A stretch of DNA of 64,000 bases, taken from Methylobacillus flagellatus KT (lineage in GTDB: Bacteria; Pseudomonadota; Gammaproteobacteria; Burkholderiales; Methylophilaceae). The stretch spans positions 558,001-622,000 of the forward strand of contig NC_007947.1 of assembly GCF_000013705.1 (NCBI RefSeq), written 5' to 3'. Both the position numbers and the translations under genes were made by a program. Positions 4,031-21,531 of the stretch are shown piece by piece. Each line of letters starts with the position of its first letter. Position 1 is the first letter of the stretch. The notes beneath the pieces are model-generated. The model worked only from the letters and a program-made list of their open reading frames with translations, did not search any database and was not told the origin of the DNA.

Positions 4031-4051
4031 GCAAGTAAGCCTGGACATTTT

Positions 4052-4098
4052 CCATCCAGTAAAAAAGCCGGCATGTCGCCGGCTTTTTTACTGGATGG
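4052..4098. terminator. Perfect 21-bp hairpin, bidirectional terminator
   Basis: A perfect 21-base inverted repeat with a GCCGGC core, a five-base loop and A6/T6 tracts built into the stem separates the convergent genes ending at 4030 (+) and 4108 (-). It gives U-tracts in both directions. Confidence 0.9.
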
Positions 4099-4107
4099 GG
4101 ACTTTAA

Positions 4108-4344
4108 TCAAGTATTGGTGAGTGGGGCTTTCGCCGTATCCGGCAGGTGCATATCCAGTTTTTTTGCCAGGAGCAGGGCCCGTTTCCTTCGGTTGGTGTC
4201 ATGGATTTGCTGGTCTATCAGGCTCAGCACATCTTCGACCCTGAGGACGTCCTGGTAAGCCTGAATATTGTCCTTGAGTGTCTGGAGGACTTGAATGCTT
4301 TGTTGCGCGTCATAAATGGACTGCTCGAGGTTCTGGCCAAACAT
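4108..4344 (-). CDS. Small helical protein of unknown function
   Basis: I chose the ATG at 4344 because CAGGAG lies about seven bases upstream; an in-frame start at 4362 lacks a ribosome site. The 78-residue product (MFGQNLEQSIYDAQQ...) is rich in Gln, Leu, Asp and Ile with heptad-like spacing, so it is probably a short coiled coil. It has no signal peptide or membrane segment. It shares a terminator with the dehydrogenase-like gene and lies downstream of nothing obviously related. No family is recognised. Confidence 0.5.
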   Translation of the reverse strand: MFGQNLEQSIYDAQQSIQVLQTLKDNIQAYQDVLRVEDVLSLIDQQIHDTNRRKRALLLAKKLDMHLPDTAKAPLTNT

Positions 4345-7881: not shown

Positions 7882-8895
7882 CTATGCTTTGTGCAGGCGC
7901 GTACGCTCCAGGGTTTTATTGGGACATTCCCCGAACAGCTCGCGGTAGTAACGTGAGAACAGGCTCATGTGCCAGAACCCCCATTTGGTCGCCACATTGG
8001 CGATGCTGGTCACGGAGTCAGGCGCCGATTGCAGTTCTGCGCGTACGCGGTGCAGCCTGACGTTGCGCATGTAGGCGACGGGCGTGATACCGAGCACGCG
8101 CAGGAAGGCGTGGTTCAGCGTGCGCCGGCTCACGCGCAATTCGATGCAAAGCTCGCTGATCGTCAACGGACAGCATGAGTTCAGCAAGGTGAAATCGCGC
8201 ACCCGGTTGACGATATAGCGGTGGATGCGATGGTCGTAATGGTGGTTGATGCTGTCCTTTGCCTGCACCAGTGCTTGCAGGCACGTCGACATGAGGTCTT
8301 CCTCGAAATTCGGCCACATATGCTTCACGCTGGCAGACTCGTGCACATCCGAAATGTAGCGGGTGCCGCCCACCAGCGAAGTCATCAGCCGGTTGGCGAT
8401 GGTGGAGGATATCTGCTCCACCGCCTTCACCTTCCTCATGATTTCCCGCAGGTCGACCCACTCCACCAACGCGGCATATTCTTCCAGGCGTTGTGCGGAA
8501 ATGACGGCGGCGGCAATTTCGGAACAATGCGAGGTGCGGAAAAGCAGCTCGGTGTTTTTGTTCAGCGTAATGAGGGAATCCTGCTTGACCGGGAGCATCC
8601 CCCAGGTGGCCTCGCCCTCTATCATGGTCGGCAGGCCGATGACGTAGGTGTCGGCCGGTGCGCTTGCCAACTGGTCCACCGCGCGATTCATCTTTTCGCG
8701 GAAAATCTGTATGCCCTGACAGGAGACGCTGGTGACCGCGCCGGAAAAAGCGCCCTTGTCCAATTGGGTGTAATCTTGTTTCCAGAAAGGCAAGGCTTCC
8801 GCCTGTTCCAGCACATCCTTGGGCCGGCGGTCGACCAGGTGCAATTCGTAGCTGCCCCGGGAGCCGCTACCCAAAAACTGTTCTTGAATATTCAC
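7882..8895 (-). CDS. EutR-like AraC-family regulator, paralogue 1
   Basis: The product has about 337 residues. The C-terminal third carries the AraC/XylS double helix-turn-helix (ELRVSRRTLNHAFLRVLGITPVAYMRNVRLHRVRAEL; VATKWGFWHMSLFSRYYRELFGECP), closest in style to EutR, the ethanolamine-operon activator. The N-terminal part (DVLEQAEALPFWKQDYTQLDKGAFSG) is shared almost word for word with the paralogue at 11113-12132. GGAGGA overlaps the first GTG (8904), so I chose the second GTG (8895), nine bases downstream. Its promoter region carries the shared 15-bp box at 9097-9111, pointing to self- or cross-regulation. Its position beside tatABC and mau suggests an amine-responsive activator of methylamine genes (inference). 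Confidence 0.85.
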   Translation of the reverse strand: MNIQEQFLGSGSRGSYELHLVDRRPKDVLEQAEALPFWKQDYTQLDKGAFSGAVTSVSCQGIQIFREKMNRAVDQLASAPADTYVIGLPTMIEGEATWGMLPVKQDSLITLNKNTELLFRTSHCSEIAAAVISAQRLEEYAALVEWVDLREIMRKVKAVEQISSTIANRLMTSLVGGTRYISDVHESASVKHMWPNFEEDLMSTCLQALVQAKDSINHHYDHRIHRYIVNRVRDFTLLNSCCPLTISELCIELRVSRRTLNHAFLRVLGITPVAYMRNVRLHRVRAELQSAPDSVTSIANVATKWGFWHMSLFSRYYRELFGECPNKTLERTRLHKA

Positions 8896-9358
8896 GCTTC
8901 TCACTCCTCCGGGCCTGACTCTTGATCGGCCCCGATCCTGGAATCATGGGATTCCCGGTCGAGGCTCCGGTCGGCCTTTAATTTTTCATCGTGTAGTACG
9001 TTATTTTCTGCCCAGTTGAAACCGTCTTTTGAATGCTTGTTCTTAAATTAATACAGACTGGTAAGTGTAACTGTAGACCTTATTGATTTGGGCCGATAGC
9101 AAGAATTGGCAATACTCCTCTGCTCGCTGGATACATTTCTCAACGCTGGCCGGCAACATGGCTATCCGGCAGGCTGGGCGCGAGTTTGGCGAGAGCTTCC
9201 AGCTTTTGCCAAGGATGAAAAAAGTAACGGGTAGGAGGCTGCCGGCCGTGTCTGTGGCGCCAAGTATTGCCGTTTTTTAATAACGTCGCCTGGCTGACCC
9301 GTGCAGAATGACCAATATAGTTTGTCATCCGGCAACCATACAGCAAGGCATAGAGATC
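8896..9358. other. Intergenic region between araC-1 and the HepT-like gene
   Basis: This 463-base gap holds the leader and boxed promoter of the regulator (minus strand) and the upstream region of the HepT-like gene. I see no convincing gene. A frame at 9083-9280 (+) overlaps the regulatory box, lacks a ribosome site and looks spurious. Confidence 0.5.
9070..9111 (-). promoter_or_regulatory. Promoter of araC paralogue 1 with regulon box
   Basis: On the minus strand the box TGCCAATTCTTGCTA (9111-9097) is followed 22 bases downstream by TACAGT (9075-9070), a -10-like hexamer. The same geometry recurs at five other promoters in this region. The predicted leader to the GTG at 8895 is about 165 bases. 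Confidence 0.65.
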
Positions 9359-9775
9359 ATGGCGTACAGGCAGCACAGCCTTCATTATTATTTAGAGAGC
9401 ATTGTCGCGGCGGCGGCCCGTATCAGTAGCTATATCCATGGCATGGATGCGATGGACTTCTACCAGAACAAGCAGGCGCGGGATGCCGTGCTGTGGAACT
9501 GCGGCGGGATCAAGGGCGCATGCCGGCGCATCCAGACCCATTTTCCTTCGTTTGCCGCCAATAACCGGGATATGCCGTTTGGCGATATCTACCGCAGGCT
9601 GGATGCCGCCATCAAGCTTTATCACGATGCCGACTTGAACATGGTCTGGGAGATCGTGCATGCCGAGCTGCCGGTACTGTCGGCGCAAATAGCCACGGTG
9701 CGGGCGCATTATGAGCAATCCAACGACACCTTGAGCTTGTGGCGCTTCAATGATGCCAGCATGGCCGACGGCTGA
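9359..9775 (+). CDS. HepT/DUF86-like protein without adjacent antitoxin
   Basis: From ATG 9359 the product has 138 residues. The arrangement of YLESIVAAAARISSYIHG, ARDAVLWNCGGIKGACRRIQTHFP, and KLYHDADLNMVWEIVHAELPVLSAQI follows the helical HepT-like fold (DUF86), including the family's 'D...vW.iv..elP.L' ending. HepT proteins are RNase toxins paired with MntA-type nucleotidyltransferase antitoxins. The family's R-x4-6-H-x-Y motif is altered here (no clear Arg; H-D-A instead of H-x-Y), and no MntA-like gene is nearby. It may therefore be an inactivated or repurposed copy. An upstream in-frame start at 9308 is possible. Confidence 0.55.
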   Translation: MAYRQHSLHYYLESIVAAAARISSYIHGMDAMDFYQNKQARDAVLWNCGGIKGACRRIQTHFPSFAANNRDMPFGDIYRRLDAAIKLYHDADLNMVWEIVHAELPVLSAQIATVRAHYEQSNDTLSLWRFNDASMADG

Positions 9776-9791
9776 TGCCGCCGTGAGATGT

Positions 9792-9834
9792 TGCCGATTA
9801 TTGCTAACGAGTTTGGCCGCTTATCAAGGATGAT
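9792..9834 (+). promoter_or_regulatory. tatABC promoter with regulon box
   Basis: The box TGCCGATTATTGCTA (9792-9806) is identical to those before the porin and mauF. A weak -10-like GATGAT starts 23 bases after the box (9829-9834). The predicted leader to tatA is about 25 bases. Confidence 0.65.
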
Positions 9835-9864
9835 GGATTTTTAAGATTGTTGGGAGTTCGCGAA

Positions 9865-10029
9865 ATGGGTAGTTTCAGTATTTGGCATTGGCTGATCGTG
9901 CTTGCGGTCGTCACCATGGTGTTCGGGACGAAGCGCTTGCGCAATATGGGGAGCGACCTGGGCGGCGCCTTGAAGAATTTCAAGGAAGCCTCGAAAGACC
10001 CCGACGCAACCTTGAGCGACAAGCCCTGA
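9865..10029 (+). CDS. tatA: Sec-independent translocase subunit TatA (short)
   Basis: The 54-residue protein starts at ATG 9865 after GGGAG. It has an N-terminal membrane helix ([19 protein letters not shown]), the hinge and amphipathic helix ([21 protein letters not shown]) of TatA, and only a short acidic tail. TatA oligomers form the passage for folded proteins with twin-arginine signals. The usual length is 75-90 residues, so this is a compact version. It heads a tatA-tatB-tatC unit flanked by the two EutR-like regulators, not by the histidine genes that often accompany tatABC in betaproteobacteria. That suggests a second, dedicated Tat set, with MauA (17235) as the obvious client. Confidence 0.9.
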
Positions 10030-10030
10030 T

Positions 10031-10345
10031 ATGTTCGACGTCGGATTTTCAGAAATGCTGGTGATCGCCGTGGTGGCCTTGATCGTGCTTGGCCCGGACA
10101 AGCTGCCCAAGGTCGCGCGCACCTGTGGCATGCTCTATGGCCGGCTGCAGCGTTATGTCTCCGGCTTCAAGCAGGACATGGAGCGCGAGCTCGCCCTGGA
10201 CAATATGCGCAAAGCCACCGCGGAGGCCCAGCAAAAGCTGCTGGCCCTGCAAGCCCAGCTGTCTGAAATCCATCCGGAGAGCGCCGGGCTGGCCGAGGTT
10301 GAGCCCGTCAGCCAGGCAAGCCCAGAGATTCAAACGGAGAAGTGA
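10031..10345 (+). CDS. tatB: Sec-independent translocase subunit TatB
   Basis: The 104-residue protein begins MFDVGFSEMLVIAVVALIVLGPDKLPKVART, the diagnostic TatB start with a membrane helix and the G-P-x-x-L-P hinge. A long charged helix follows (YVSGFKQDMERELALDNMRKATAEAQQKLLALQAQLSEI). TatB and TatC form the receptor that recognises the twin-arginine signal. The ATG lies one base after the tatA stop, so the two are translated together. The tail is shorter than in E. coli TatB, as in many betaproteobacteria. Confidence 0.93.
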   Translation: MFDVGFSEMLVIAVVALIVLGPDKLPKVARTCGMLYGRLQRYVSGFKQDMERELALDNMRKATAEAQQKLLALQAQLSEIHPESAGLAEVEPVSQASPEIQTEK

Positions 10346-10352
10346 GGCCGCC

Positions 10353-11093
10353 ATGGAGCAGGACGGGTTTCTCAGCCACTTTTACGAACTCAGGACGCGG
10401 TTCATCCGCATCATCGCCGGCATGCTGGTTCCCTTGCTGGCGATCCTGCCGTTTGCCAACGAGCTGCATGGCTTTTTCGTCACCCCGTTACTGAACCAGT
10501 TGCCGGCCGGCGGGCAGATGATCGCCACCTCCGTCACTTCCCCGTTCCTGATCCCGCTGAAGATAGCGTTTTACGTCGCCGTCGCCGTCAGCCTGCCGCA
10601 TACGCTCTACCAGGTGTGGAAGTTTTTCCAGCCCGGGCTATACCCGAAGGAAAAGCTCATCAGCGTGCTGGGCGTGGTGTCCAGCGTGATCCTGTTCGTC
10701 ATCGGCGCCTGTTTCGCTTTCTACCTGGTCATCCCGGTCGTGATCAAGTTCATCGTCGGGACTGCGCCCGAGGGCGTGGCGGTGATGACGGAAATTGGCA
10801 GCTACCTGGATTTCCTGGTCTCGATCATGCTGGCTTTCGGCATCTCTTTCCAAACCCCGATCATCGTCGTCGCCATTGCTGCGCTGGGCATAGTCGAACT
10901 CAAGACCTTGCGCGAGATACGCGGCTACGTCGTGGTCGGCGCCTTCGTCGTCGGCGCCATTTTCACCCCGCCCGACATCATTTCCCAGTTCATGCTGGCG
11001 ATTCCCCTTTGGCTGCTATACGAGCTGGGCGTTTTCATCGCCATGCTGGTGGTTGCAAGGCGGGCGGCAGTGCCCGCCCTGCCTGACGCTTGA
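10353..11093 (+). CDS. tatC: Sec-independent translocase subunit TatC
   Basis: The 246-residue protein has six hydrophobic segments and the conserved TatC features. The N-terminal FLSHFYELRTRFIRI carries the 'H-x-x-E-L-R-x-R' signal-binding motif, the first cytoplasmic loop reads YQVWKFFQPGLYPKEK, and TPPDIISQFMLAIPLWLLYELGVF ends the core. All are intact, so a functional translocase is expected. The start is at ATG 10353, seven bases after the tatB stop. The stop is 20 bases before the end of the convergent regulator gene. Confidence 0.94.
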   Translation: MEQDGFLSHFYELRTRFIRIIAGMLVPLLAILPFANELHGFFVTPLLNQLPAGGQMIATSVTSPFLIPLKIAFYVAVAVSLPHTLYQVWKFFQPGLYPKEKLISVLGVVSSVILFVIGACFAFYLVIPVVIKFIVGTAPEGVAVMTEIGSYLDFLVSIMLAFGISFQTPIIVVAIAALGIVELKTLREIRGYVVVGAFVVGAIFTPPDIISQFMLAIPLWLLYELGVFIAMLVVARRAAVPALPDA

Positions 11094-11112
11094 GGCAGAG
11101 TTCGCCGCGCGC

Positions 11113-12132
11113 TCATGGTCTCTTGGACTCCAGGCGTGCGCGCTGCAGCGTATCGATGGGACATTCCCCGAACAGCTCGCGGTAATAGCGGGAAAACAGG
11201 CTCAGGTGCCAGAATCCCCACTTGGTGGCCAGGTGCGCAATGCTGATGACTTCGTGCGGCGATTGCTGCATCTCGAAGCGCACCCGGTGCAGCCGCAGGT
11301 TGCGGATATAGGCCACGGGCGTGATGCCGAGCACCCGGATGAATGCATGGTTCAGCGTTCTGCGGCTGACGCGTAGCGATTTGCACAGCTCGCCTATGGT
11401 CAAGGGCAGGGCGGAGTTGGAGAGCGTGTAGTCGCGCACGCGGTTCACGAGGTAGCGCGGCAGGCGCTGGTCGAAGTGCGGATGGATATTGCCCCTGACA
11501 TGCAGTAGCGTATGCAGACAGGTCGACAGGAGGTCGTCCTCGAAATTCCGCCACATCTGGTGGGCGTGGATGTTATCCGCGATATCCGCCTTGTACTGTA
11601 TGCCTCCCTGCAAGGCGCTGAGCAATTGCTGCGCAATGTCGGGATGCAGCATTTCAACGGGCTTCAAGCCTTCCATGACTTTGCTCAGGTCTATCCACTC
11701 GACCTCGGCCGCATAGGTCTCCAGCCTTTGCGCGGGAATCACCGCTGCCGTGATTTCTGAAATATTGGAGGTCTTGAAATAGAGCTCCGCATTCTTTTCC
11801 AATGTGATGAGGGAGTTTGTTGTAATGGGAAGCAGGCCCCAGGTGGATTCCCCATCAACCAGGGTCGGCAATCCCATGACGTAGCTATCCACAGGGGCGC
11901 TGGCGATCTGGTCCACCGCCTGGTTCATCGTTTCGGTGAATATCTGCAAGCCATCACAAGAGACGCTGGTCACGGAGCCGGAAAAAGCGCCTTTGCTGAG
12001 CTGGGTGTAGTCCTGCGACCAGAATGGTAGTGCCTCTGCCTGTTCCAATACATCTGAAGTTGAGCGTTCTACTAGGTGCAAAAAAGGGCAAGCCCCAGGG
12101 GCGTTGCCCATAAAATCTTCTTTAAAACCCAT
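11113..12132 (-). CDS. EutR-like AraC-family regulator, paralogue 2
   Basis: The 339-residue protein is a close paralogue of the regulator at 7882-8895. The N-terminal core (DVLEQAEALPFWSQDYTQLSKGAFSGSVTSVSCDGLQIF) and the C-terminal AraC helix-turn-helix pair (SLRVSRRTLNHAFIRVLGITPVAYIRNLRLHRVRFEM; LATKWGFWHLSLFSRYYRELFGECP) are nearly the same. The very similar DNA-reading helices predict that both bind the same site, and the 15-bp box at six promoters here is the best candidate. The more variable middle section may set effector preference. GGAGGGG precedes the ATG at 12132. The pair brackets tatABC and faces the porin and mau genes. No LysR-type MauR gene is present. Confidence 0.87.
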   Translation of the reverse strand: MGFKEDFMGNAPGACPFLHLVERSTSDVLEQAEALPFWSQDYTQLSKGAFSGSVTSVSCDGLQIFTETMNQAVDQIASAPVDSYVMGLPTLVDGESTWGLLPITTNSLITLEKNAELYFKTSNISEITAAVIPAQRLETYAAEVEWIDLSKVMEGLKPVEMLHPDIAQQLLSALQGGIQYKADIADNIHAHQMWRNFEDDLLSTCLHTLLHVRGNIHPHFDQRLPRYLVNRVRDYTLSNSALPLTIGELCKSLRVSRRTLNHAFIRVLGITPVAYIRNLRLHRVRFEMQQSPHEVISIAHLATKWGFWHLSLFSRYYRELFGECPIDTLQRARLESKRP

Positions 12133-12300
12133 TATGTTTACCCCTCCGTATAGGCTTTAATTTCGGGCTTATACCCTGTTTTTATCAATTTATTTAAATT
12201 GTAGTGATCTACTTGTTTTTAATTTTCAATCATTTCCCCTGCATCTAAACCAGCCTGTACAAGCTGGATAAAGAGTCAAAAACGCGATCATCTGCACGTG

Positions 12301-12342
12301 ACTTTAAATCGGAATTTGGCCGCGCTATAGCAAAAAATGGCA
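12301..12342 (-). promoter_or_regulatory. Promoter of araC paralogue 2 with regulon box
   Basis: On the minus strand TGCCATTTTTTGCTA (12342-12328) is the most divergent of the boxes. It is followed 22 bases on by TAAAGT (12306-12301). The predicted leader is about 160 bases, close to that of paralogue 1. Confidence 0.55.
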
Positions 12343-12378
12343 TGACTGTTACCTGTTTGTGACAAAGCGTTACGGATA

Positions 12379-12420
12379 TGCCGATTATTGCTAGTTCGAA
12401 TTGCATAACCTCACTATTGT
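12379..12420 (+). promoter_or_regulatory. Porin promoter with regulon box
   Basis: The box TGCCGATTATTGCTA (12379-12393) is followed 22 bases later by TATTGT (12415-12420), a -10-like hexamer. It lies back to back with the box of the divergent regulator at 12328-12342. Confidence 0.65.
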
Positions 12421-12687
12421 TCCATCACTTCAATCTGTTAATGAATGTTCCGAGTTGAGAGAAGACGCCGGTAATAGGCGATTTTCAACCTGGATTTTTG
12501 TGAATTGTTCCCGAAATTGTTTTGAAATATTTCGAAGGGTTGTCAGCCGTATGGACGCTGCTTGCAGGGGTTTTTATCAGGTCGATTATCGTTTTGATTT
12601 TTCACGAATCTTCCTGGAGTTAACAGTAGATATTTCTCAATAATTTGGTCTTTACATTTTTTAACAAAACTATACAAGGGAGTATAA

Positions 12688-13527
12688 ATGGTGAGAAAAA
12701 ATACATTGATCGCAATGTCCCTGATGCTGGGGGCAATGCCGTACTGTGCAGTCGCGGAAGAGGATAAAAATTTGAATGAGGAGGCGAGCGAAGAATGGGC
12801 GGATTCGCCGCACCATGTCACCACTAACTTGGGCTTGTATTCGGACTACCTGTTTCGCGGGCTCTCATTGGCGCGCGGGCGCGGCGCAATACAAGGATTC
12901 ATCGACTACTCCCACGTGAGCGGCCTGTTTCTGGGAATAGGAGGCACCAATGTGCACAAGGAGGCAATCAATGGCAACACATTGGAAATCGACCTCTACG
13001 GCGGCTACAGCCGCGCACTCGCGGGCGATGTGATCGGCACGGTCGGCTTCCTGCAATTCTATTACCCCGATAACGAAAAGATCGCAGGCCAGTCTTCCAA
13101 CGTGACGGAAGTCAATCTTGCCATCGACTACCGTCATTTCAATTTCAAGTATTCCTATTCCTTGACGGACTGGTTCGGGACGAATACCGCTTCCTATGGC
13201 AACACCCAGGTAGGCCGCCATACCACGGGCACAGGCGACTCCAAGGGCAGCAACTATGCTGAGTTCAACTACAACGATGCGCTGCCGTTCTGGGGCTTAA
13301 ACCTCTACCTGCATGTCGGCCATACGACCGTCAAGAATTACTCCGTCGCCAGCTATACCGACTATGCCGCCGGCATCAACAAGGATTTCTCCGTCGGCGA
13401 CAGCAAAGGCTGGAACGCCGGGTTGTTGTATCACGCGACCGATGCAAACGACGACTGGTATGTGACCGCGAGCGGCTACAAGACCGGGGGCAACAGGTTC
13501 TTTGGTTACGTCAAGCGCACATTCTAG
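12688..13527 (+). CDS. TorF-family putative outer-membrane porin
   Basis: The 279-residue protein starts with a Sec signal (MVRKNTLIAMSLMLGAMPYCAVAEE). The mature part opens HHVTTNLGLYSDYLFRGLSLARGRGAIQGFIDYSH, the characteristic start of the TIGR02001/TorF family. Alternating amphipathic strands follow, ending in RFFGYVKRTF with a C-terminal aromatic residue as in outer-membrane barrels. AAGGGAG precedes the ATG. Because its promoter carries the same box as mauF and tatA, it may provide methylamine or another amine with a route across the outer membrane (inference). The family is otherwise poorly characterised. Confidence 0.8.
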   Translation: MVRKNTLIAMSLMLGAMPYCAVAEEDKNLNEEASEEWADSPHHVTTNLGLYSDYLFRGLSLARGRGAIQGFIDYSHVSGLFLGIGGTNVHKEAINGNTLEIDLYGGYSRALAGDVIGTVGFLQFYYPDNEKIAGQSSNVTEVNLAIDYRHFNFKYSYSLTDWFGTNTASYGNTQVGRHTTGTGDSKGSNYAEFNYNDALPFWGLNLYLHVGHTTVKNYSVASYTDYAAGINKDFSVGDSKGWNAGLLYHATDANDDWYVTASGYKTGGNRFFGYVKRTF

Positions 13528-13906
13528 GCAGATAGGGACGGTGCAGGCTGGATAGGGCGGGTTTCGCCCAGCGGCCCACCGTTCGATGATGCTCCGCGAT
13601 TTGAATAAGGTTTGCAGCATATCCATTTCCTGCCATGCGGTATTTCTTGTTGCGCCTATCCCTCCGGAAGCCATCCCGACGCGGCTCAATGCTTATCGAA
13701 ATGGGTGCCTATGGCCGGATTTGCCCAAATGGGCCGCATGGAAAAAGCCGCCAATAGAAAGAATCGGCAAGACTTGTTTTCGATGCGCAGGATATGCCGA
13801 TTATTGCTACGGCGCCGAAAGGGGCGGCGATATAGTGGCGCCGTGTCATTTACAAATTATTAACAATTTCTTTAACAAGAGGCCAATCGGCCTAAGAGGA
13901 GGAAAC
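13528..13906. other. Intergenic region upstream of mauF
   Basis: This 379-base gap holds a possible weak terminator for the porin (GGGCG/CGCCC at 13555-13569), the boxed mau promoter and the mauF leader. No gene is visible. An upstream extension of the mauF frame to 13586 crosses the promoter and is not credible. Confidence 0.5.
13755..13836 (+). promoter_or_regulatory. mau operon promoter with two opposed regulon boxes
   Basis: TGCCGATTATTGCTA (13795-13809) precedes the -10 TATAGT (13831-13836) by 22 bases. A second copy, TGCCGATTCTTTCTA, lies on the opposite strand at 13769-13755. The promoter-proximal box occupies the -35 position, as expected for class II activation. The leader to the mauF GTG is about 65 bases. 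Confidence 0.7.
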
Positions 13907-14758
13907 GTGAGTATAGACGCCAAACTCTCTCGTCAGGCATCCGGCAGCAAAGCTGGTGTCGCCTGCGTGCCTGACGCGTACAGTTTTTCCGAGGCGCGAT
14001 CGCCCGGCACGCGTTTTGCGCTGATGCTGTCCGCAGTTGCGGCCGGCCTGGCAGGTGGCGCCATGCTGCATTCTGCAATGTCAGCGACAAGCGCACTGAC
14101 CGGATTGTTCATCGTGCTGGCCCTGGCTGGCGGTTTTTTGTCCACCTGGTCGCCATGCGGCTATTCCAGCCTGAGCCTGTTGCGTCCTGCCGGGCGCTAT
14201 TCGTTTGCTTCCGTGCTGCGTTGGTCGCCGACCTTCTTCACGCATGCGCTGGGTTATGCGATTGGCGCGGTGGTACTGGGCGGGGCATTGGGCATGGCGG
14301 GCTGGCTGCTGTTCTCGTCCCTGCCTTTCAGCTACATGGTCGCAGGCATGGCGGTGCTGGCGCTGGGATATGGCGCGCACCAGTTCGGCTTCATGAAGAT
14401 GCCTTATCCGCAGCGCCGCGCGCAGGTGCCGCATGATGCCCGCTTCCGCTTCCGTTCTTCCGTGATCGGCCTGTTGTACGGCTATGCACTGGGCATGAAT
14501 TACCTGACCTATGTGCAGACCCCGATCCTCTACATCGTCACCGGCGTCGCGCTGTTCTGCGGCGACGTGAAGACCGCGATCGTGATTATCGGCATCTTCA
14601 ATATCGGCCGCTGCCTGCCTGTCGCCGTGAATTTCCTGCCGGTCAAGAACGTGACGGTGCAGGTATGGCTGGCCCGTTGGCAGGAACGCGCTGTCGAGGT
14701 GGACGGTTTCCTTCTGCTGTCTGTCGGCTCCGCTGCATTGATGCTGCTGGTGCTGTAA
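13907..14758 (+). CDS. mauF: Methylamine utilization protein MauF
   Basis: The 283-residue integral membrane protein has several hydrophobic helices, beginning at about residue 40, and the motif STWSPCGYSSLSLLRP. That segment is typical of MauF and recalls CcdA/DsbD-like thiol-electron carriers. MauF is needed for methylamine dehydrogenase formation; its exact step is unsettled. I chose GTG 13907 because AAGAGGAGG lies six bases upstream. It is the first gene of the mauFBEDAGLMN operon and sits directly behind the boxed promoter. Confidence 0.92.
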   Translation: MSIDAKLSRQASGSKAGVACVPDAYSFSEARSPGTRFALMLSAVAAGLAGGAMLHSAMSATSALTGLFIVLALAGGFLSTWSPCGYSSLSLLRPAGRYSFASVLRWSPTFFTHALGYAIGAVVLGGALGMAGWLLFSSLPFSYMVAGMAVLALGYGAHQFGFMKMPYPQRRAQVPHDARFRFRSSVIGLLYGYALGMNYLTYVQTPILYIVTGVALFCGDVKTAIVIIGIFNIGRCLPVAVNFLPVKNVTVQVWLARWQERAVEVDGFLLLSVGSAALMLLVL

Positions 14759-14819
14759 GGGCAGGGGTTTAGTGAAGTAGAAGTGCATTGATAAAACATT
14801 AATAATGTCTGGAGGAAAT

Positions 14820-16022
14820 ATGACAACATTCCAACCTGGTCGCCTGGCCGGGCAACTCGCTGCCACAGCACTGCTGGCAGCCACGTGTTCGGCATTTGCG
14901 GCTGATGCGCCGACGACAGTACCTAGCTCATTGGGTGCGATAGGCACGACTCCAACGCTGGATAACATCACGATGGAGCCAGGGCTTCCATCTGATGCCA
15001 AGCGTGTGTATGTGCTGGATCCCGGTCACTTCCATGTGACGACGACGGTCTACACCATTGATGGCAACAAGAACAACCTGCTGGGGATGACCGATACCGG
15101 CAAGCTGGCCAACGTGATGCTGAGCAGCGATGGTAAGTTCTTCGTGACCTCGAATACCACCTATAGTCGCATTGCCCGCGGCAAGCGCGATGACTATGTC
15201 GAGGTGATTGATGCGCAAAGCCATAAGGTGCTGGCCGATATTGACATTCCTGAAGGTCGGTTCCTCACGGGCGTGATGAATCGCATGGCATCTCTTTCCA
15301 CCGATAATAAGTACATGCTGTTCCAGCAGTTTGCGCCGTCTCCTGCCGTTGGTCTGGTTGATCTGGAGAAGAAGAGCTTCGTCAAGATGATGGATATACC
15401 TGATTGCTACCAGATTTTCCCTGTGCCCAATCAGAGTTTCTATATGCACTGTCGTGATGGTTCCTTGCAACAGTTCGGCTATGACGATAAAGGTAATCTC
15501 AAGCCAATGAAGCCTACCAAGGTGTTTCATGGCGAAGATGATTATCTGTTCGTGAATCCTTATTACTCCAACGGTTCTGGTCGGCTAGTATGGCCCACTT
15601 ATGAAGGCCGCATATTTCAGGCTAAGTTGACGGATAAGAAAGTCGATTTCATGAAGCCTTTCGAATTGTTCACTGAAGCGGAAAAGAAAGCTAATTGGCG
15701 GCCGGGGGGCTGGCAGGTGGTGGCATATCACAAGGCAAGAAATGAAATCTATGTGTTGGCAGATCAACGTGCCAAATGGACGCATGTGACTGCAAGCCGT
15801 TATGTGTTCGTTGTCGACGGCACCACCGGCAAGCGCCTGCGCCGCATCGACCTCGGCCACGAGATTGACGGCATCAGCGTCACCCAGGATGCCAACCCCA
15901 ATCTCTATGCGGTGTCTGCCGAAGCCAAGACCCTGTTTACCTTCAATGCGGTGACCGGCAAGGAAACCGGCAAGGTGGACGAGCTTGGCCGCGCGCCAAC
16001 CATTTCTCTGACAATGGATTAA
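14820..16022 (+). CDS. mauB: Methylamine dehydrogenase heavy (alpha) chain
   Basis: The 400-residue periplasmic subunit starts at ATG 14820, right after GGAGG. It has a Sec signal (MTTFQPGRLAGQLAATALLAATCSAFA) and a seven-bladed propeller body with MADH alpha signatures (SDAKRVYVLDPGHFHVTTTVYTIDG; PEGRFLTGVMNRMASLSTD; TTGKRLRRIDLGHEIDGISVTQDANP). Two heavy and two light chains form the alpha2beta2 enzyme, which oxidises methylamine to formaldehyde and ammonia. The middle part (about 15050-15780) looks less GC-rich than its neighbours, but the frame is intact. Confidence 0.97.
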   Translation: MTTFQPGRLAGQLAATALLAATCSAFAADAPTTVPSSLGAIGTTPTLDNITMEPGLPSDAKRVYVLDPGHFHVTTTVYTIDGNKNNLLGMTDTGKLANVMLSSDGKFFVTSNTTYSRIARGKRDDYVEVIDAQSHKVLADIDIPEGRFLTGVMNRMASLSTDNKYMLFQQFAPSPAVGLVDLEKKSFVKMMDIPDCYQIFPVPNQSFYMHCRDGSLQQFGYDDKGNLKPMKPTKVFHGEDDYLFVNPYYSNGSGRLVWPTYEGRIFQAKLTDKKVDFMKPFELFTEAEKKANWRPGGWQVVAYHKARNEIYVLADQRAKWTHVTASRYVFVVDGTTGKRLRRIDLGHEIDGISVTQDANPNLYAVSAEAKTLFTFNAVTGKETGKVDELGRAPTISLTMD

Positions 16023-16034
16023 GAGAGCGCAACC

Positions 16035-16601
16035 ATGAGCTGGCTTATTAACGATCCAACTGCCGCGGTGCTGGCCTCGCTGTTCATCGGCATTGTCCTG
16101 GCGGCGGCGGCCATCCCGAAGTTTCGCCACCCGGATGAGTTCCAGGGGGTGGTGGCAAATTACAAGTTATTGCCATCGTTCCTGGTCGCGCCGGTTGCCA
16201 AGCTTCTGCCGCTGGTCGAGTTGCTCTGCGCAGTTGCCTTGATGATCCCGCCCGCCCGAGAAATTGCGGCATGCGTTGCGGCCGGGCTGTTCATCGTGTT
16301 CGCGCTGGCACTGGCCATCAACGTCGGCCGGGGTCGCACCCATATCGATTGCGGCTGCGTACGCCGCCCCACCAGCATGAGCCGCATCGGCATGTTCCAT
16401 GTCATGCGGGCCATCGCGCTGGCGGGGGTAAGCCTGTATGTGGCTGCTGTGCCCGTGGAGTTTTCCAGGATTTCAATCGAATCCGGACTGATGGGATTGG
16501 CTGCCGCGGCGATGCTGGCCTTGCTGTACATGGGAGCGGACATGCTGGTGGGCTTCCCCAATTCAAAGAACGACTTACTCAAAGGAAATACAAATGACTA
16601 G
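16035..16601 (+). CDS. mauE: Methylamine utilization protein MauE
   Basis: The 188-residue membrane protein has about five hydrophobic segments and the MauE/DoxX-like pattern ([52 protein letters not shown]). The DCGC pair is characteristic and may carry redox-active cysteines. With MauD it is required for export or disulfide formation of the light chain, which holds six disulfides. The start is 12 bases after the mauB stop; the end overlaps mauD by eight bases, indicating translational coupling. Confidence 0.93.
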
Positions 16602-17211
16602 TGGAATTATGATTGCATCCAACGTGCTGCTATGGGGGGCTTTCCTCGCCCTGGCGGCGCTCATGCTCGGCGTCATCAGGCAAATCGGCCTGCTGCACGA
16701 GCGCTCGGCTCCGCTCGGCGCCATGATGATCGATCACGGCCCGGATATCGGCGAGCGTTCGCCGGTGTTCAGCATGACGACCATCGACGGCGTGCCCGTG
16801 ACCGTGGGCCGCGCAGTGTCGCCAGGCCGTCCAAGCCTGCTGATGTTCACCGGCCCTTCCTGCCCGATCTGCCAGAAACTGCTGCCCATCATCCGCTCTG
16901 TCGCCGCTACCGAAGGCGCCGACGTGATCCTGATCAGCGACGGCACGCAGGCCGAGCACCGCGAGTTCCTGCGCAACCATCCACTGGACGGCGAACACTA
17001 CGTCGTTTCCGCCGAGATCGGCATGCGCTACCAGGTCTCCAAGGTGCCGTACGGCGTGCTCCTGGACAAGGACGGCGTCATCCAGGCCAAGGGCCTTTGC
17101 AACACCCGCGAGCATGTCGAAAGCTTGTTCGAGACAACGCGCGTCGGCCACTCGACTTTGCAGAACTTCCTTAAGCACGGCGTAGAAGATGCGTCGAAAC
17201 ATGTGCATTAA
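16594..17211 (+). CDS. mauD: Methylamine dehydrogenase accessory thiol-disulfide protein MauD
   Basis: The 205-residue protein has an N-terminal membrane anchor (residues 8-30) and a periplasmic thioredoxin-like domain with the active-site motif [14 protein letters not shown] (C-P-I-C) and the cis-Pro region [14 protein letters not shown]. It is the family's presumed disulfide isomerase or oxidase for the MauA light chain. It overlaps mauE and precedes mauA by 23 bases, the usual order. Confidence 0.95.
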
Positions 17212-17234
17212 TTGACGGAGAAGGGAAACAAAAT

Positions 17235-17795
17235 ATGAAAAAAAATACAGGATTTGATTCGGGCATCGAAAAACTGGCCCGTAAAACCGCCAGCAAAACA
17301 GGACGCCGTAGCTTTATTGGCAAACTAGGGGGCTTTTTAGTTGGCTCAGCCTTGTTGCCCTTGCTGCCGGTGGACCGCCGGGGACGCATGAATGAAGCGC
17401 ACGCGGAGACCAAAGGCGTGCTGGGCAGGGAGGGCTACAAGCCACAGGATAAGGACCCCAAGTCTTGCGATTACTGGCGTCATTGCTCAATTGATGGCAA
17501 CTTGTGTGACTGCTGCGGTGGTTCTTTGACATCTTGCCCTCCGGGCACAGAGCTGTCGCCAAGTTCATGGGTAGCAAGTTGTTTCAATCCAGGCGACGGT
17601 CAAACTTATCTGATAGCGTATCGTGATTGTTGTGGTAAGCAGACTTGTGGTCGTTGCAATTGCGTGAACGTGCAGGGTGAGCTTCCAGTCTATCGACCAG
17701 AGTTTAACAACGACATCGTCTGGTGCTTCGGCGCCGACAACGATGCCATGACCTACCATTGCACGGTCTCCCCGATCGTCGGTAAGGCCAGCTAA
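17235..17795 (+). CDS. mauA: Methylamine dehydrogenase light (beta) chain, TTQ subunit
   Basis: The 186-residue precursor has a long twin-arginine signal (R24-R25-S-F-I-G-K followed by LGGFLVGSALLPLLP), so it is a Tat substrate. The mature chain is Cys-rich. The tryptophan tryptophylquinone cofactor forms from Trp112 (SSWVASC) and Trp163 (DIVWCFG). The catalytic-type Asp131 (YRDCCG) stands 19 residues after the first Trp, and the Trp pair is 51 apart; both spacings equal those of the Paracoccus enzyme (57/76/108). The C-terminus (DAMTYHCTVSPIVGKAS) is nearly invariant in the family. GGAGAAGGG precedes the ATG. Confidence 0.98.
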   Translation: MKKNTGFDSGIEKLARKTASKTGRRSFIGKLGGFLVGSALLPLLPVDRRGRMNEAHAETKGVLGREGYKPQDKDPKSCDYWRHCSIDGNLCDCCGGSLTSCPPGTELSPSSWVASCFNPGDGQTYLIAYRDCCGKQTCGRCNCVNVQGELPVYRPEFNNDIVWCFGADNDAMTYHCTVSPIVGKAS

Positions 17796-17814
17796 GCAGA
17801 CAATGTGAAGGGCT

Positions 17815-18825
17815 GTGCCAGGTATGCGTTTTTGCAGTGTGTTTCTGGTGTTTGGTCTGGCGGCGGCGATGGGTGTCAGCCACGCCGCTGATCTTCCTCC
17901 GCGGGAATCCTATCAGCGTCCGGCTGACATTCCATCGCCGCCGGACAATCCATTGACCATCGAAAAGGCCGCCCTGGGCAAAACCCTGTTTTTCGACCCC
18001 CGTCTCTCGCGGGACGGGTCCATGTCTTGCGCCACCTGCCACAACCCGGGCATGCGCTGGAGCGACGGCCGGATATTGCCGCTGCGGGCGGATGGCGTGG
18101 AACATGCGCGACGCACGCCTACCGTGCTCAACAGCGCCTGGCTCACTACCCTGATGTGGGATGGCCGGGCGACATCGTTGGAGGATCAGGCGATTCTGCC
18201 AATTACCACGGCACATGAAATGAATTTTGAAATGCCTTTGCTGTTAAATAGGTTGAAGGACGTGGCAGGGTACGCGCCCTTGTTTGCCAGGGCATTCGGA
18301 GATGCGGAAATTACTGAAAAGCGTCTAACCCAGGCGTTAGCCAGTTTTCAGCGTACATTGGTTTCCAAGCTAGCTCCGTTTGATGTCTGGGTAGAAGGCG
18401 ACGAGAGTGCAATGAGTGAACGTGCCAAGCGCGGATTTGCCGTATTCAAAGGAAAGGCACGGTGCGCAACCTGCCATTCGTCCTGGCGATTCACTGACGA
18501 TAGCTTTCATGATATTGGGTTGCCCAGCCTTGATCCAGGGCGTGGCGCAAGGGTGCCACCGCAAGTCACGATCATGCAACATGCTTTCAAGACACCCACT
18601 CTCAGAGATTTGCCTCGCAACGGACCTTTTATGCATGATGGATCGATGCATAGCTTGGATGAGGTTATCAGGCATTATGAGCAAGGTGGCCTTCAGCGCC
18701 CTAGCATTTCTGCGGAAATGAAAAGGTTTGAACTTACCGAAACCGAGCGGGAGTACTTGATCGAATTTATTCATACATTGGATGGTGGCCTGCTGGATAT
18801 AGAGCCTCCCCAACTCCCGGAGTAA
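17815..18825 (+). CDS. mauG: Di-heme TTQ-maturation enzyme MauG
   Basis: The 336-residue periplasmic di-heme c-type protein has a signal peptide ending SHAA and two heme-binding CATCH motifs (residues 72-76 and 217-221). It belongs to the bacterial cytochrome-c-peroxidase superfamily. MauG completes TTQ synthesis in preMADH through a bis-Fe(IV) state. Tyr288 (IRHYEQGG) is a good candidate for the unusual axial Tyr ligand that distinguishes MauG from true peroxidases (inference from position). Start choice is between GTG 17815 and ATG 17824; the latter would trim three residues. Confidence 0.95.
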
Positions 18826-18831
18826 TGATTG

Positions 18832-19305
18832 ATGTTGAGAAATAGAACTGACGCTGTGCATGACCGAGTGCGGTTCAGTATCGGTACGCGTGTCATGAGC
18901 AGTTGGAGCATCGTGGTCTGGATGTTTCACCGGCAAACATGGCAATTCTTATTGACTACTGGTTTTATCCTTTGCATTTCTTCCATCGCCTGGAGCGCAG
19001 AAGTGCATCAAATGGAGCTGACTCACCATGAATTCGAGCCTTGGAGTTTCGTGCCAAAACCTGGTGACCGCATTGATATCCACAACCATTCTGATATCGT
19101 GCACGCGATTTACGTTACATACCCGAACGGAATTGTTGTCAATCTGAGTGAAACTGCTGCACAGCTGCCCGGCATGACCGTGTCGTGGACCGTGCCGGAA
19201 GACGCGGAGGATGGCGACGAGTATGTATTGCAATGCTGGATACACACCATTATCCGGGCTGCTCTGAAAGTGAAGGCTCCCTTATCTCAGTTACCAGAAC
19301 CATGA
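18832..19305 (+). CDS. mauL: Methylamine utilization protein MauL (cupredoxin-like)
   Basis: The product has about 157 residues. After a basic start and a hydrophobic signal or anchor (QTWQFLLTTGFILCISSIAWS), the rest resembles plastocyanin-like domains. HNHSDIVHAIYV and YVLQCWIHTIIRAALKVKAP supply a His and a C-x2-H pair at cupredoxin ligand positions. MauL is part of mau clusters but was reported not to be essential in all hosts, and copper binding is inference. I chose ATG 18832 (GGAG nine bases upstream). An internal ATG at 18894 would place the signal nearer the N-terminus. Confidence 0.85.
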   Translation: MLRNRTDAVHDRVRFSIGTRVMSSWSIVVWMFHRQTWQFLLTTGFILCISSIAWSAEVHQMELTHHEFEPWSFVPKPGDRIDIHNHSDIVHAIYVTYPNGIVVNLSETAAQLPGMTVSWTVPEDAEDGDEYVLQCWIHTIIRAALKVKAPLSQLPEP

Positions 19306-19317
19306 TGGAGATCCATG

Positions 19318-20019
19318 ATGGCAGAGGAAGGAAACAGAAATAAATCGACGTCAACGATAGAAAAGCCTGAGCGCAGGCTGATGTTCAAGCAGCTGACGCG
19401 CCGAGTGGGTGTGGCCGTAGTAGGCTCTATCTTTGGCAGCGCCTTGCTCAGGTCGCGACCTGCGCCCGCGGCTACAGTTTTGCGACCTCCCGGCGCATTG
19501 GCGGAAAAAGATTTCCAATCGGCTTGCGTGCGTTGCGGCCTATGTGTGGAAGATTGCCCGTTCGACATCCTCAAGCTAGCCAGCTGGGCTGATCCGGCGC
19601 CCATGGGTACGCCATTTTTCACTGCGCGGGACGAGCCGTGCCGCATGTGCCAGGACATTCCTTGTGTGCGCGCTTGTCCGACCGGTGCGCTAAATCCACT
19701 GCTGACAGACATACGCAAGGCCGACATGGGCGTCGCGGTGCTGGTGGACCATGAAACCTGCCTCAACTACAAGGGCCTGAACTGCAGCATCTGCGTCCGC
19801 GTCTGCCCGATCCGCGGCGAGGCGATCTCGCTCAAGCCGATCCAGAACGAACGCGGCCTGTTGCAGATTCCGACCGTGGACAGCACTAAATGCACCGGTT
19901 GCGGCACCTGCGAGAAACATTGCGTGCTGTCGGAGGCCGCCATCCGTGTCCTGCCCCGCGAGCTTGGCCTCGGGGTCTCCGGCGCGAACTCCGCCGGACG
20001 GACGCCGGTATGGAAATAG
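19318..20019 (+). CDS. mauM: Ferredoxin-type protein MauM
   Basis: The product has about 233 residues. It carries a twin-arginine-like N-terminal region (ERRLMFKQLTRRVGVAVVG) and four cysteine clusters for [4Fe-4S] centres: CVRCGLCVEDCP, CRMCQDIPCVRACP, CLNYKGLNCSICVRVCP and CTGCGTCEKHC. It is the MauM/NapG family. Together with MauN it is thought to pass electrons between the quinone pool and periplasm, but it is dispensable for methylamine growth in some species. A second ATG three bases earlier (19315) is possible; spacing to GGAG favours 19318. Confidence 0.93.
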   Translation: MAEEGNRNKSTSTIEKPERRLMFKQLTRRVGVAVVGSIFGSALLRSRPAPAATVLRPPGALAEKDFQSACVRCGLCVEDCPFDILKLASWADPAPMGTPFFTARDEPCRMCQDIPCVRACPTGALNPLLTDIRKADMGVAVLVDHETCLNYKGLNCSICVRVCPIRGEAISLKPIQNERGLLQIPTVDSTKCTGCGTCEKHCVLSEAAIRVLPRELGLGVSGANSAGRTPVWK

Positions 20020-20876
20020 CGGCGATGACAAACATGGGCGCAATCCGCGCTGCGCTGTATCGGCGCCGCTGGCTGTTGAGCCGGCGTGTCGTGCAGATGT
20101 TCATCGTCCTGGCGTTCCTGGTGGATTGGCCTGAAGTCGGGCGTATCGCGCATGGCAACCTGTCTTCCAGCCTCTGGCTCGGCGTTCTGCCGCTGACGGA
20201 CCCCTTCATTGCACTGCAATCGCTGTTTTCCGGCACGATGCTGGCGAAAACCGCATTGGTTGGCACCGTCATCGTCGCCGGTTTCTATTTTCTGTTCGGC
20301 GGGCGCATCTATTGCAGCTGGGTCTGCCCGATCAACATGGTGACCGACCTGGCCTACTGGCTGCGGCAGAAGCTCAATCTCAAAGGTAATATGACCATGT
20401 CGCGCGAGTTGCGCATGGCGGTGCTGGGCATGTCGCTGATACTCACCGTGCTCAGCGGCACATTGGCCTGGGAGAACTTCAACCCCATCACGCTGTTCCA
20501 GCGCGAACTCATGTGGACTTCCGTTGCGGGCAGCATGGTCCTGCTCAGCCTGTTTCTGTTTGATTTATTGATCACGCGCCGCGGCTGGTGCGGCCACCTG
20601 TGCCCGGTCGGCGCTTTTTATGCCGTGCTGGGGCGCTATGGCCGCCTGCGCGTCACCGCCGAGCAATCAGGCTCATGCGCGGGCTGCGGTTCCTGCATCC
20701 GCGTCTGTCCCGAGCCCCACGTGCTGGCGCCCGTGGTCTCCCTCAAGGCCAATACCGTCACCCACGGCGATTGCACCCGTTGCGGCGCTTGCCTGGACCA
20801 GTGCGCGACTGGCGCCCTTGCCATGAAGCTGGACCTGGGCAAATCCTTCCGCGGCATCCCCATCGTCAGAAAGTAA
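20010..20876 (+). CDS. mauN: Ferredoxin-type membrane protein MauN
   Basis: The 288-residue NapH-family protein has four hydrophobic segments, the two membrane-proximal CxxxCP motifs (IYCSWVCP, GWCGHLCP) and two C-terminal [4Fe-4S] motifs (CAGCGSCIRVCP, CTRCGACLDQCA). It is the membrane partner of MauM and the last mau gene. The start at ATG 20010 overlaps mauM by ten bases; ATG 20025 and 20034 are in-frame alternatives. The order mauFBEDAGLMN lacks mauC (amicyanin), mauJ and mauR, as known for Methylobacillus/Methylophilus-type clusters. Confidence 0.92.
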   Translation: MEIAAMTNMGAIRAALYRRRWLLSRRVVQMFIVLAFLVDWPEVGRIAHGNLSSSLWLGVLPLTDPFIALQSLFSGTMLAKTALVGTVIVAGFYFLFGGRIYCSWVCPINMVTDLAYWLRQKLNLKGNMTMSRELRMAVLGMSLILTVLSGTLAWENFNPITLFQRELMWTSVAGSMVLLSLFLFDLLITRRGWCGHLCPVGAFYAVLGRYGRLRVTAEQSGSCAGCGSCIRVCPEPHVLAPVVSLKANTVTHGDCTRCGACLDQCATGALAMKLDLGKSFRGIPIVRK

Positions 20877-20931
20877 TCGCCGGTTCTTCTTGCCGTTTTC
20901 CTGCCGTTTCCGGCGAATACCAACAATAATC

Positions 20932-20961
20932 AAAAAAAATCCGGTGGATTACGCCACCGGA
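20932..20961 (-). terminator. Terminator of the azurin gene
   Basis: TCCGGTGG pairs with CCACCGGA around a six-base loop. On the minus strand the hairpin is followed by an eight-T run, placed 48 bases after the azurin stop. Confidence 0.85.
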
Positions 20962-21008
20962 CCAAGGGACAAGGAGTGAACAAACCAATTTGCTGGGTTA
21001 CAACGACA

Positions 21009-21455
21009 TTAATCGACCAGCTTCACCGTACCGCGCATCATGAAGGAATGAAACGCGAAGGAGCAGTAGAATGAGTAGGACTCGCCATCCTTCAGGATGC
21101 TGGGCTTGAAGGTGACAGATGTTTTCTCACCGCCGCCTACCAGCGGGGTGTATGCCAATACGCGCGGGTCGTTAGGCGGAATGAAGTTCTTGTCTATGCC
21201 GGCTTCCACGCCGGCCTTCGCCAGGTCGTTCACGTCGGCGCTGCGGGCCAGCACCCAGTTGTGGCCCATGCCGGCCTTGGATGCCGTGCCTGTGTGGGCG
21301 AAGTTGACAGTGAACTCCTTGCAGCTTTTGGGGATGTCGATGGAGCGTGTATTGAACGCCATGCTATCGCCGGCGCTGACATTGACTTCGCAGTTGCTTG
21401 CAGCGGCTGCAATGGTGGGAATGAATGCCAGGGCAAAAAGAAGTTGATTACGCAT
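21009..21455 (-). CDS. azu: Azurin (blue copper protein)
   Basis: The 148-residue precursor starts at ATG 21455 (MRNQLLFALAFIPTIAAAA signal) and gives a mature azurin of about 128 residues starting near SNCEVNV. Copper ligands are visible: His in GMGHNW, and Cys, His and Met in YCSFAFHSFMMRGT. The usual ligand loop C-T-F-P-G-H reads C-S-F-A-F-H here, which changes the residues beside the exposed His where partners dock. Azurin is the likely electron acceptor of MADH in place of amicyanin. The gene converges on mauN and has its own boxed promoter. A longer frame to 21608 crosses that promoter and is rejected. Confidence 0.93.
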   Translation of the reverse strand: MRNQLLFALAFIPTIAAAASNCEVNVSAGDSMAFNTRSIDIPKSCKEFTVNFAHTGTASKAGMGHNWVLARSADVNDLAKAGVEAGIDKNFIPPNDPRVLAYTPLVGGGEKTSVTFKPSILKDGESYSFYCSFAFHSFMMRGTVKLVD

Positions 21456-21489
21456 AAACGATCCGAATTGTGAATGTAATGGGGAGACA

Positions 21490-21531
21490 ATTCTAAGTGT
21501 CTGGCTTGGCTTTTTATGGTAAGAATTGGCA
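21490..21531 (-). promoter_or_regulatory. Azurin promoter with regulon box
   Basis: On the minus strand TGCCAATTCTTACCA (21531-21517) is followed 22 bases later by TAGAAT (21495-21490), a near-consensus -10. The predicted leader is about 28 bases. This ties azurin to the mau, tat and porin promoters. Confidence 0.65.

Follow-up and report, generated by a model that had tools for sequence, protein, structure and literature searches.

Control of the mau genes for methylamine dehydrogenase (MADH) by MauR, a LysR-type protein of Paracoccus, is reportedly the title of a published paper, and a LysR gene that lies divergent from mauF in Paracoccus denitrificans (L163) fits the published MauR. Here, the mau locus of Methylobacillus flagellatus KT was analyzed in a 64,000-nucleotide stretch of NC_007947.1 (positions 558,001 to 622,000, forward strand), called the window throughout and numbered from its first letter, together with a 15-bp element, the box, that recurs at six promoters of this locus. 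The first-pass annotation of the window had stated that MauR is absent, and no LysR match was indeed present among the products scanned between 7499 and 23831. The locus encodes two EutR-like proteins of the AraC/XylS type, AraC-1 and AraC-2; it resembles the MauR system, which serves the same enzyme, in having a regulator gene beside mauF and differs from it in protein family. The switching of MADH outside the alphaproteobacteria is without explanation in the literature searched. We propose, with a probability of roughly 0.83, that the EutR-like AraC/XylS-type regulator of the locus activates the enzyme, twin-arginine (Tat) export, channel and acceptor genes through the box.

The closest layout is that of XylS at the Pm promoter of the Pseudomonas TOL plasmid, for which the part of PMC5481539 available to us gives a 15-bp subunit site, TGCA-N6-GGTA, and an activator site that overlaps that of RNA polymerase. 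The box is alike in both respects, with two short motifs 6 bp apart (TGCC-N6-TGCTA) in a predicted 15-bp subunit site; unlike Pm, which has two direct repeats, perfect boxes here (defined below) are single or form inverted pairs. TmaR of Ruegeria pomeroyi, as described in the accessible part of PMC13390433, is likewise a master regulator of the AraC type, with binding to its own promoter and to several methylated-amine promoters, but it serves the gmaS/mgs/mgd route of trimethylamine catabolism and not MADH, and is likened here by description. The NCBIfam profile of EutR, the ethanolamine-utilization regulator, was matched nearly full-length by 18 of 18 AraC proteins and was the top hit for both window proteins, yet the cut-off of the EutR equivalog NF007522 (319) was not reached, the scores being about half of it (150 bits for AraC-1 and 147.4 bits for AraC-2), and no eut genes were among the products scanned at the locus. 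For the Methylophilaceae, the portion of PMC4109929 at hand reports that, around the MADH operon, only an AraC gene and tatABC are conserved, and that a small cytochrome is the assumed electron acceptor of MADH; in that portion the AraC protein is mentioned without a function, site or gene set, and a predicted site and gene set are added here. Expression of the mau genes of M. mobilis JLW8 is much higher on methylamine than on methanol, according to the part of PMC3728764 that was accessible. An AraC/XylS activator of a catabolic locus is thus of a known kind; as far as searched, this regulon and its pair geometry are new, and no description of the box was found in the literature searched, with subscription papers and regulon databases outside the search.

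The shared box at six promoters is real. Its exact 15-mer, TGCCGATTATTGCTA, is found on the plus strand ahead of tatA (9792–9806), the TorF-type porin gene (torF; 12379–12393) and mauF (13795–13809), and the variants that had been annotated on the minus strand are present ahead of araC-1 (TGCCAATTCTTGCTA, 9097–9111, 13 of 15 positions), araC-2 (TGCCATTTTTTGCTA, 12328–12342, 12 of 15) and the azurin gene (TGCCAATTCTTACCA, 21517–21531, 11 of 15). An inverted partner box with 2 mismatches had been overlooked (TGCCGATTCTTTCTA, 13755–13769, minus strand, 25 bp from the mauF box). Allowing up to 3 mismatches gives seven matches in the window against a shuffle mean of 1.89, and none of 100 shuffles got to seven. 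The rarity that had been claimed stands for the exact 15-mer, whose three copies in the 2,971,517-bp genome all lie inside the window at the mau locus, but a lone 12-of-15 site is not significant; genome-wide, 128 matches at up to 3 mismatches were counted versus 42 for the reversed control. A degenerate box, TGCCRDTTHTTRCYA, was derived from 59 boxes hand-assigned to downstream genes in the window and 13 relatives, and an exact match to it is called a perfect box. The full-genome scan that had been recommended gave six perfect matches, which are the six named promoters and no others; the six window boxes helped to define TGCCRDTTHTTRCYA, and the informative part is that no further match exists.

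With one mismatch allowed, the same genome gave 40 hits, 38 of them outside the window. Twenty of these 38 were fetched as possible regulon members elsewhere in the genome and set aside, only two having TAnnnT at 21 bp: one (L073) is inside a long open frame, and the other (L082) is ~450 nucleotides before an open reading frame (ORF) that looks HepT-like by eye. A HepT-like ORF (by Pfam) also lies in the window between araC-1 and tatA (9308–9775, plus strand); a one-mismatch box shortly before it (9268–9282) was rejected, as no −10 was found at 21 bp.

The −10-like hexamers reported in the first-pass annotation were borne out. Twenty-one bases separate box and hexamer at five promoters, namely araC-1 (TACAGT, 9070–9075, minus), araC-2 (TAAAGT, 12301–12306, minus), torF (TATTGT, 12415–12420, plus), mauF (TATAGT, 13831–13836, plus) and azurin (TAGAAT, 21490–21495, minus), and 22 bases at tatA (GATGAT, 9829–9834, plus; 21 bp in the relatives' loci L031 and L044). 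The box had been placed at the −35 position; it does adjoin or overlap the −35 region, and the placement is corrected in that the end of the box is ~21 bp ahead of the −10. For an unselected sample, all 71 perfect boxes of 14 Methylophilaceae mau loci (the window and 13 relatives) were taken irrespective of gene. TAnnnT occurs exactly 21 bp downstream of 44 of them, and at most four times at any other offset from 12 to 32. The same hexamer stands at 21 bp in 48 of the 59 hand-assigned gene-facing boxes versus none of 14 partner boxes picked by hand as facing no gene; tat promoters have GATGAT or GATTAT at that distance (22 bp in the window). None of 20 perfect boxes away from mau, hand-chosen among the matches listed for 16 relatives (10 in MADH-positive and 10 in MADH-negative genomes), has TAnnnT at 21 bp.

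Within 150 bp of one another, perfect boxes at the 14 loci form 22 pairs, all inverted, with none direct or convergent; 21 of the 22 have a gap of 25–27 or 35–36 bp, classes that differ by about one helical turn, and the remaining pair has a gap of 127. In the window, the araC-2 and torF boxes are such a pair (gap 36), and at mauF the upstream box faces no gene and has no −10; the pair therefore looks like a two-subunit operator. Correcting the single-box description given earlier, the operator at mauF, torF and araC would usually be an inverted pair. As for a second half-site in direct repeat, gaps of 0–109 upstream of the 59 boxes were scanned and the idea was dropped, all eight best direct gaps being without a site above 4 bits. 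Across the 59 aligned boxes, TGCC at positions 1–4 and TGCTA at 11–15 are largely conserved, which is the asymmetric subunit site of ~15–17 bp, with two motifs one turn apart, expected of AraC/XylS proteins; the two direct repeats ~21 bp apart of an XylS-type operator were not found among the perfect boxes of the 14 loci, a result that leaves room for a second half-site of degenerate sequence.

The same site and regulator could also serve mainly for repression that methylamine relieves, or act with dual sign, the inverted pair repressing by looping or bridging without inducer and activating with it. Gaps near 25 or 36 bp could allow a dimer to bridge the two boxes of an inverted pair, and dual action is reported for TmaR, the AraC-type regulator of methylated-amine breakdown, in the part of PMC13390433 that we could consult. 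However, most tat and acceptor promoters have one box, and the boxes lie upstream of the −10 and not over it, at a constant 21 bp, which is the usual geometry of an activator; we regard repression or dual action as quite unlikely, the geometry pointing to activation. The copies could instead be left over from duplication, or belong to a mobile or structural repeat that has no regulatory role; the 20-mer that is identical between the torF and mauF promoters would fit this, but the sequences flanking the copies differ, the register of 21 bp to a −10-like hexamer is fixed, and the pair gaps are kept across genera and in Methylophaga. We give this explanation almost no credence.

The box, its spacing, pairing and gene set, and its co-occurrence with the enzyme (below) can be read directly from the genomes; binding, activation and the inducer we infer, as follows. 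The box would be the DNA site of a single subunit of the locus-encoded EutR-like AraC/XylS-type regulator, whose two helix-turn-helix motifs would occupy successive major grooves at TGCC and TGCTA, halves that start 10 bp apart. One subunit at about −48 to −34, with the hexamer taken as −12 to −7, would contact RNA polymerase near −35, as in class II activation. At mauF, torF and araC, a second subunit would usually sit on the inverted copy ~25 or 36 bp upstream; the gap classes are about one helical turn apart, and both would therefore place the subunits on the same face of the DNA. The inducer would be a signal related to amines, probably methylamine itself or a compound derived from it, and the units switched on would be MADH and its maturation genes, the Tat exporter of the small subunit, an outer-membrane channel, an electron acceptor and the regulator genes.

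The genes under the box in the window begin with araC-1 (7882–8904, minus strand; 340 amino acids; Pfam HTH_18, 6.9e-22) and, divergently, the tat genes, whose box has no inverted partner that could be found: tatA (9865–10029; NF002813, 96 bits against a cut-off of 83), tatB (10031–10345; TIGR01410, 81.1 against 56.5) and tatC (10353–11093; Pfam TatC, 206 bits), all on the plus strand. AraC-2 (339 amino acids) is encoded at 11113–12132 on the minus strand, and the TorF-type putative porin at 12688–13527 on the plus strand (TIGR02001, 95.3 bits against 47.15; Pfam Gcw_chp). The mau genes follow on the plus strand: mauF (13907–14758, with a proposed GTG start), mauB for the MADH large subunit (14805–16022; TIGR02658, 682 bits), mauE (16035–16601; Pfam MauE, 87 bits), mauD (16594–17211; TIGR02661, 345 bits), mauA for the small subunit (17235–17795; TIGR02659, 369 bits), mauG (17815–18825; TIGR03791, 615 bits), mauL (18829–19305), mauM (19315–20019; TIGR00397, 436 bits) and mauN (20010–20876). 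Azurin, the presumed electron acceptor of MADH, is encoded at 21009–21452 on the minus strand (TIGR02695, 200 bits). TatA, TatB, TorF, MauB, MauD, MauA, MauG, MauM and azurin exceed their NCBIfam cut-offs, and MauE and TatC those of Pfam. The names mauF, mauL and mauN rest on position and conservation: mauF is conserved in the 13 relatives and mauL in relatives, neither with a family match (NCBIfam and Pfam for mauF), and mauN has iron-sulfur domains only, with 65–89% identity in the mau loci of 13 of 13 relatives. MauA starts with a twin-arginine-type stretch, RRSFIGK, which would account for the presence of the tat genes in the set.

A look at other Methylophilaceae, which had been proposed as a check, showed boxes before the same gene groups in the 13 further loci, and in Methylophaga as well. 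The box precedes mauF in 14 of 14 loci, and a divergent pair is often common to the araC and torF promoters; some species have torF at another place, and none was found in L043. A tat box is present in the window, L031, L032, L038, L044 and L134–L136 (the named copies of L033–L035) and was not found in L037 or L040–L043, and tat genes are lacking from the L039 stretch. The presumed acceptor gene, which follows mauN, has a box in 13 of 14 loci (none was found in L038), some of these boxes having one or two mismatches, and the hexamer stands at 21 bp in 12 loci and at 22 bp in L040. The boxed acceptor is azurin in three loci (the window, L032 read as L183, and L039) and a c-type cytochrome in ten; that two unrelated acceptor proteins share the box speaks for selection acting on their regulation.

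Both AraC-1 and AraC-2 have HTH_18 and HTH_AraC domains above the Pfam cut-offs in their C-termini, which places them in the AraC/XylS family, and matches in a search of solved structures cover the DNA-binding domain only. An AraC match at E ≤ 1e-20 was obtained in 26 of 150 family genomes, with ≥50% identity in 14 and 25–32% in 12. The MADH large subunit exceeds its cut-off in 14 of the 150, and these are exactly the 14 with AraC at ≥50% identity; the co-occurrence is thus 14 of 14 MADH-positive versus 0 of 136 MADH-negative genomes, with a mean of 6.3 perfect boxes per genome in the former versus 1.1 in the latter. One such AraC protein is encoded in 10 of the 14 genomes and two in 4. The earlier interpretation of an AraC-driven methylamine regulon is supported as a prediction, and with it the link to AraC; the joint action proposed for the two paralogues is conjectural, 10 of the 14 genomes having one such AraC only. 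AraC-1 and AraC-2 might instead split the regulon, one serving araC-1 and tat and the other torF, mauF and azurin, or one might antagonize the other. Their lineages in the AraC tree do differ (a well-supported clade of 12 rows includes AraC-2 but not AraC-1, in a tree with an unsettled bootstrap and many open forks), but their recognition helices are near identical, one consensus holds at all six promoters, and 10 of the 14 genomes encode a single such AraC; a division of this kind is possible, though we think it unlikely. Separately, in Methylophilus (G114 and G119), a second, diverged AraC has TGCCGGTTTTTACCA upstream (L036:7787–7821 and L034:10–24, both plus strand), and in G114 an apparent direct repeat of the box lies just ahead of TGCCGGTTTTTACCA, with no TAnnnT at 21 bp.

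The search was extended by a MauA scan of a collection of 84,980 species, which gave 157 relatives, from which 80 MADH-type loci were kept (10 of them family genomes already used). AraC and a perfect box are both present in 20 of these loci and neither in 57, which include two short Methylophaga contigs (L126 and L129); one locus (L125) has AraC only, with one-mismatch boxes, and in two a box alone was found, their contigs stopping short of where AraC would lie. Outside the Methylophilaceae, AraC was found in 10 loci (nine of Methylophaga and one of Advenella), nine of them with a perfect box. In 13 loci from outside the family, 41 boxes with at most one mismatch were compared: 15 have TAnnnT at 21 bp, six at 22 bp, five at 20 bp and at most four at any other distance, and the 11 inverted pairs of these loci have gaps of 36 (nine pairs), 25 and 33. 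No alphaproteobacterial stretch fetched (up to 10 kb on each side) has AraC or a perfect box, those of Paracoccus, Methylorubrum and Hyphomicrobium having no AraC relative at E ≤ 1e-10, and no further genome exceeded the MADH cut-off in samples of the order (399 genomes) or phylum (398). One Methylophaga bin, BWSM_61, has two different mau loci (L125 and L131), each with its own AraC and boxes, those of L125 with one mismatch.

Several results weigh against activation by the local AraC through the box. Loose matches are common, as the 128 at up to 3 mismatches attest; MADH-negative genomes do have their average of 1.1 perfect boxes, with a maximum of five; the species are related, and the counts are not independent events. 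No TAnnnT is found at 21 bp in 27 of the 71 unselected boxes, and tatA of the window combines a poor −10 (GATGAT) with a 22-bp spacing. Tat and acceptor promoters mostly have no inverted partner, and known XylS operators are direct repeats, of which there are none among the perfect boxes here. Among the 20 perfect boxes taken from places away from mau, one has GATGAT, the hexamer of the tat type, at 21 bp; it lies near a contig end of the MADH-negative genome G057 (L049:487–501, minus strand) and is perhaps a remnant of a mau region or a cut one. Finally, the sole AraC of G074 has diverged (53%), with both recognition helices altered, yet the boxes beside it are standard. The box might thus be read by another, unlinked regulator, the neighboring AraC being a passenger with other targets. 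Against this stand the 14-of-14 co-occurrence of genomes, the perfect box in 20 of 21 loci with AraC, the boxes at the araC promoters themselves and the XylS-like 15-bp layout, and we hold an unlinked regulator to be very improbable.

Under the preferred reading, in which the AraC protein of the locus acts through the box, MADH switching at a locus without a MauR-type gene gains a named candidate regulator, a predicted site given letter by letter and a defined gene set: the enzyme, its maturation, Tat export, the TorF-type channel and whichever acceptor a species uses. The TorF-type channel becomes a testable part of methylamine use, and a methylamine-responsive promoter for methylotroph engineering is suggested. 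The box also points to small RNAs within the same regulon.

Between araC and mauF, a box followed at 21 bp by TATAGT or GATATT was found in G077, G040 (M. oryzisoli), G006 and G050 (Methylotenera versatilis 7, two copies). It heads units of ~120–180 nucleotides with no shared ORF, which end in a hairpin (TTTAGGC...GCCTA) whose loop has CUCC, followed by a GC-rich terminator and a T-run. The candidate small RNAs are located at L041:15553–15735, L042:14898–15085 and L043:15061–15250 (minus strand), and, two each, at L037:3788–3918 and 4042–4228 and L143:6038–6121 and 6317–6398 (plus strand). A model of the last 82 nucleotides, built from five copies, recovers these at 84–92 bits by construction, and otherwise gives at most 36 bits in the 150 genomes. 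Two extra copies that were outside the training of the model, at 67 and 76 bits, are in the mau locus of Methylotenera sp. 24-45-7; both are preceded by a box, which in one case has a mismatch, with TATAGT at the 21-bp distance, and they bring the Methylotenera-type genomes with box-driven hairpin-terminator units to five. No copy was found in the genome of the window.

Other identities for these units were tried and rejected. No known Rfam family matched at its gathering threshold, the matches being sub-threshold only, and a reading as peptides was dropped, the ORFs of 35–36 amino acids in L041 and L042 not being found in L043 or L037. A target search with the 14-base loop complement gave 63 matches versus 54 for the reversed control in four genomes, the RNAs' own copies counted, with no clear enrichment; the matches exceeded the control in G006 and G050 and fell below it in G077 and G040. 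Covariation in the hairpin is weak, with three pairs changed on both sides, a number that 46 of 500 shuffles get to. The loop, AUCUCC or a variant, could pair with Shine-Dalgarno sequences, and methylamine would then also tune the translation of other mRNAs, which, if true, would be an RNA arm of a methylotrophy regulon. That beta- and gammaproteobacterial methylotrophs have one AraC/XylS-type methylamine regulon with helically phased inverted operators, which drives one or two small RNAs in the Methylotenera branch, is a broader proposal to which we would give even odds. In G022, the same place is taken by a diverged TTTAGGCCTCCCC stretch that includes a hairpin and a T-run (L038:15470–15600, minus strand); it scores 19 bits with the model and may be a further relative of the candidate small RNA.

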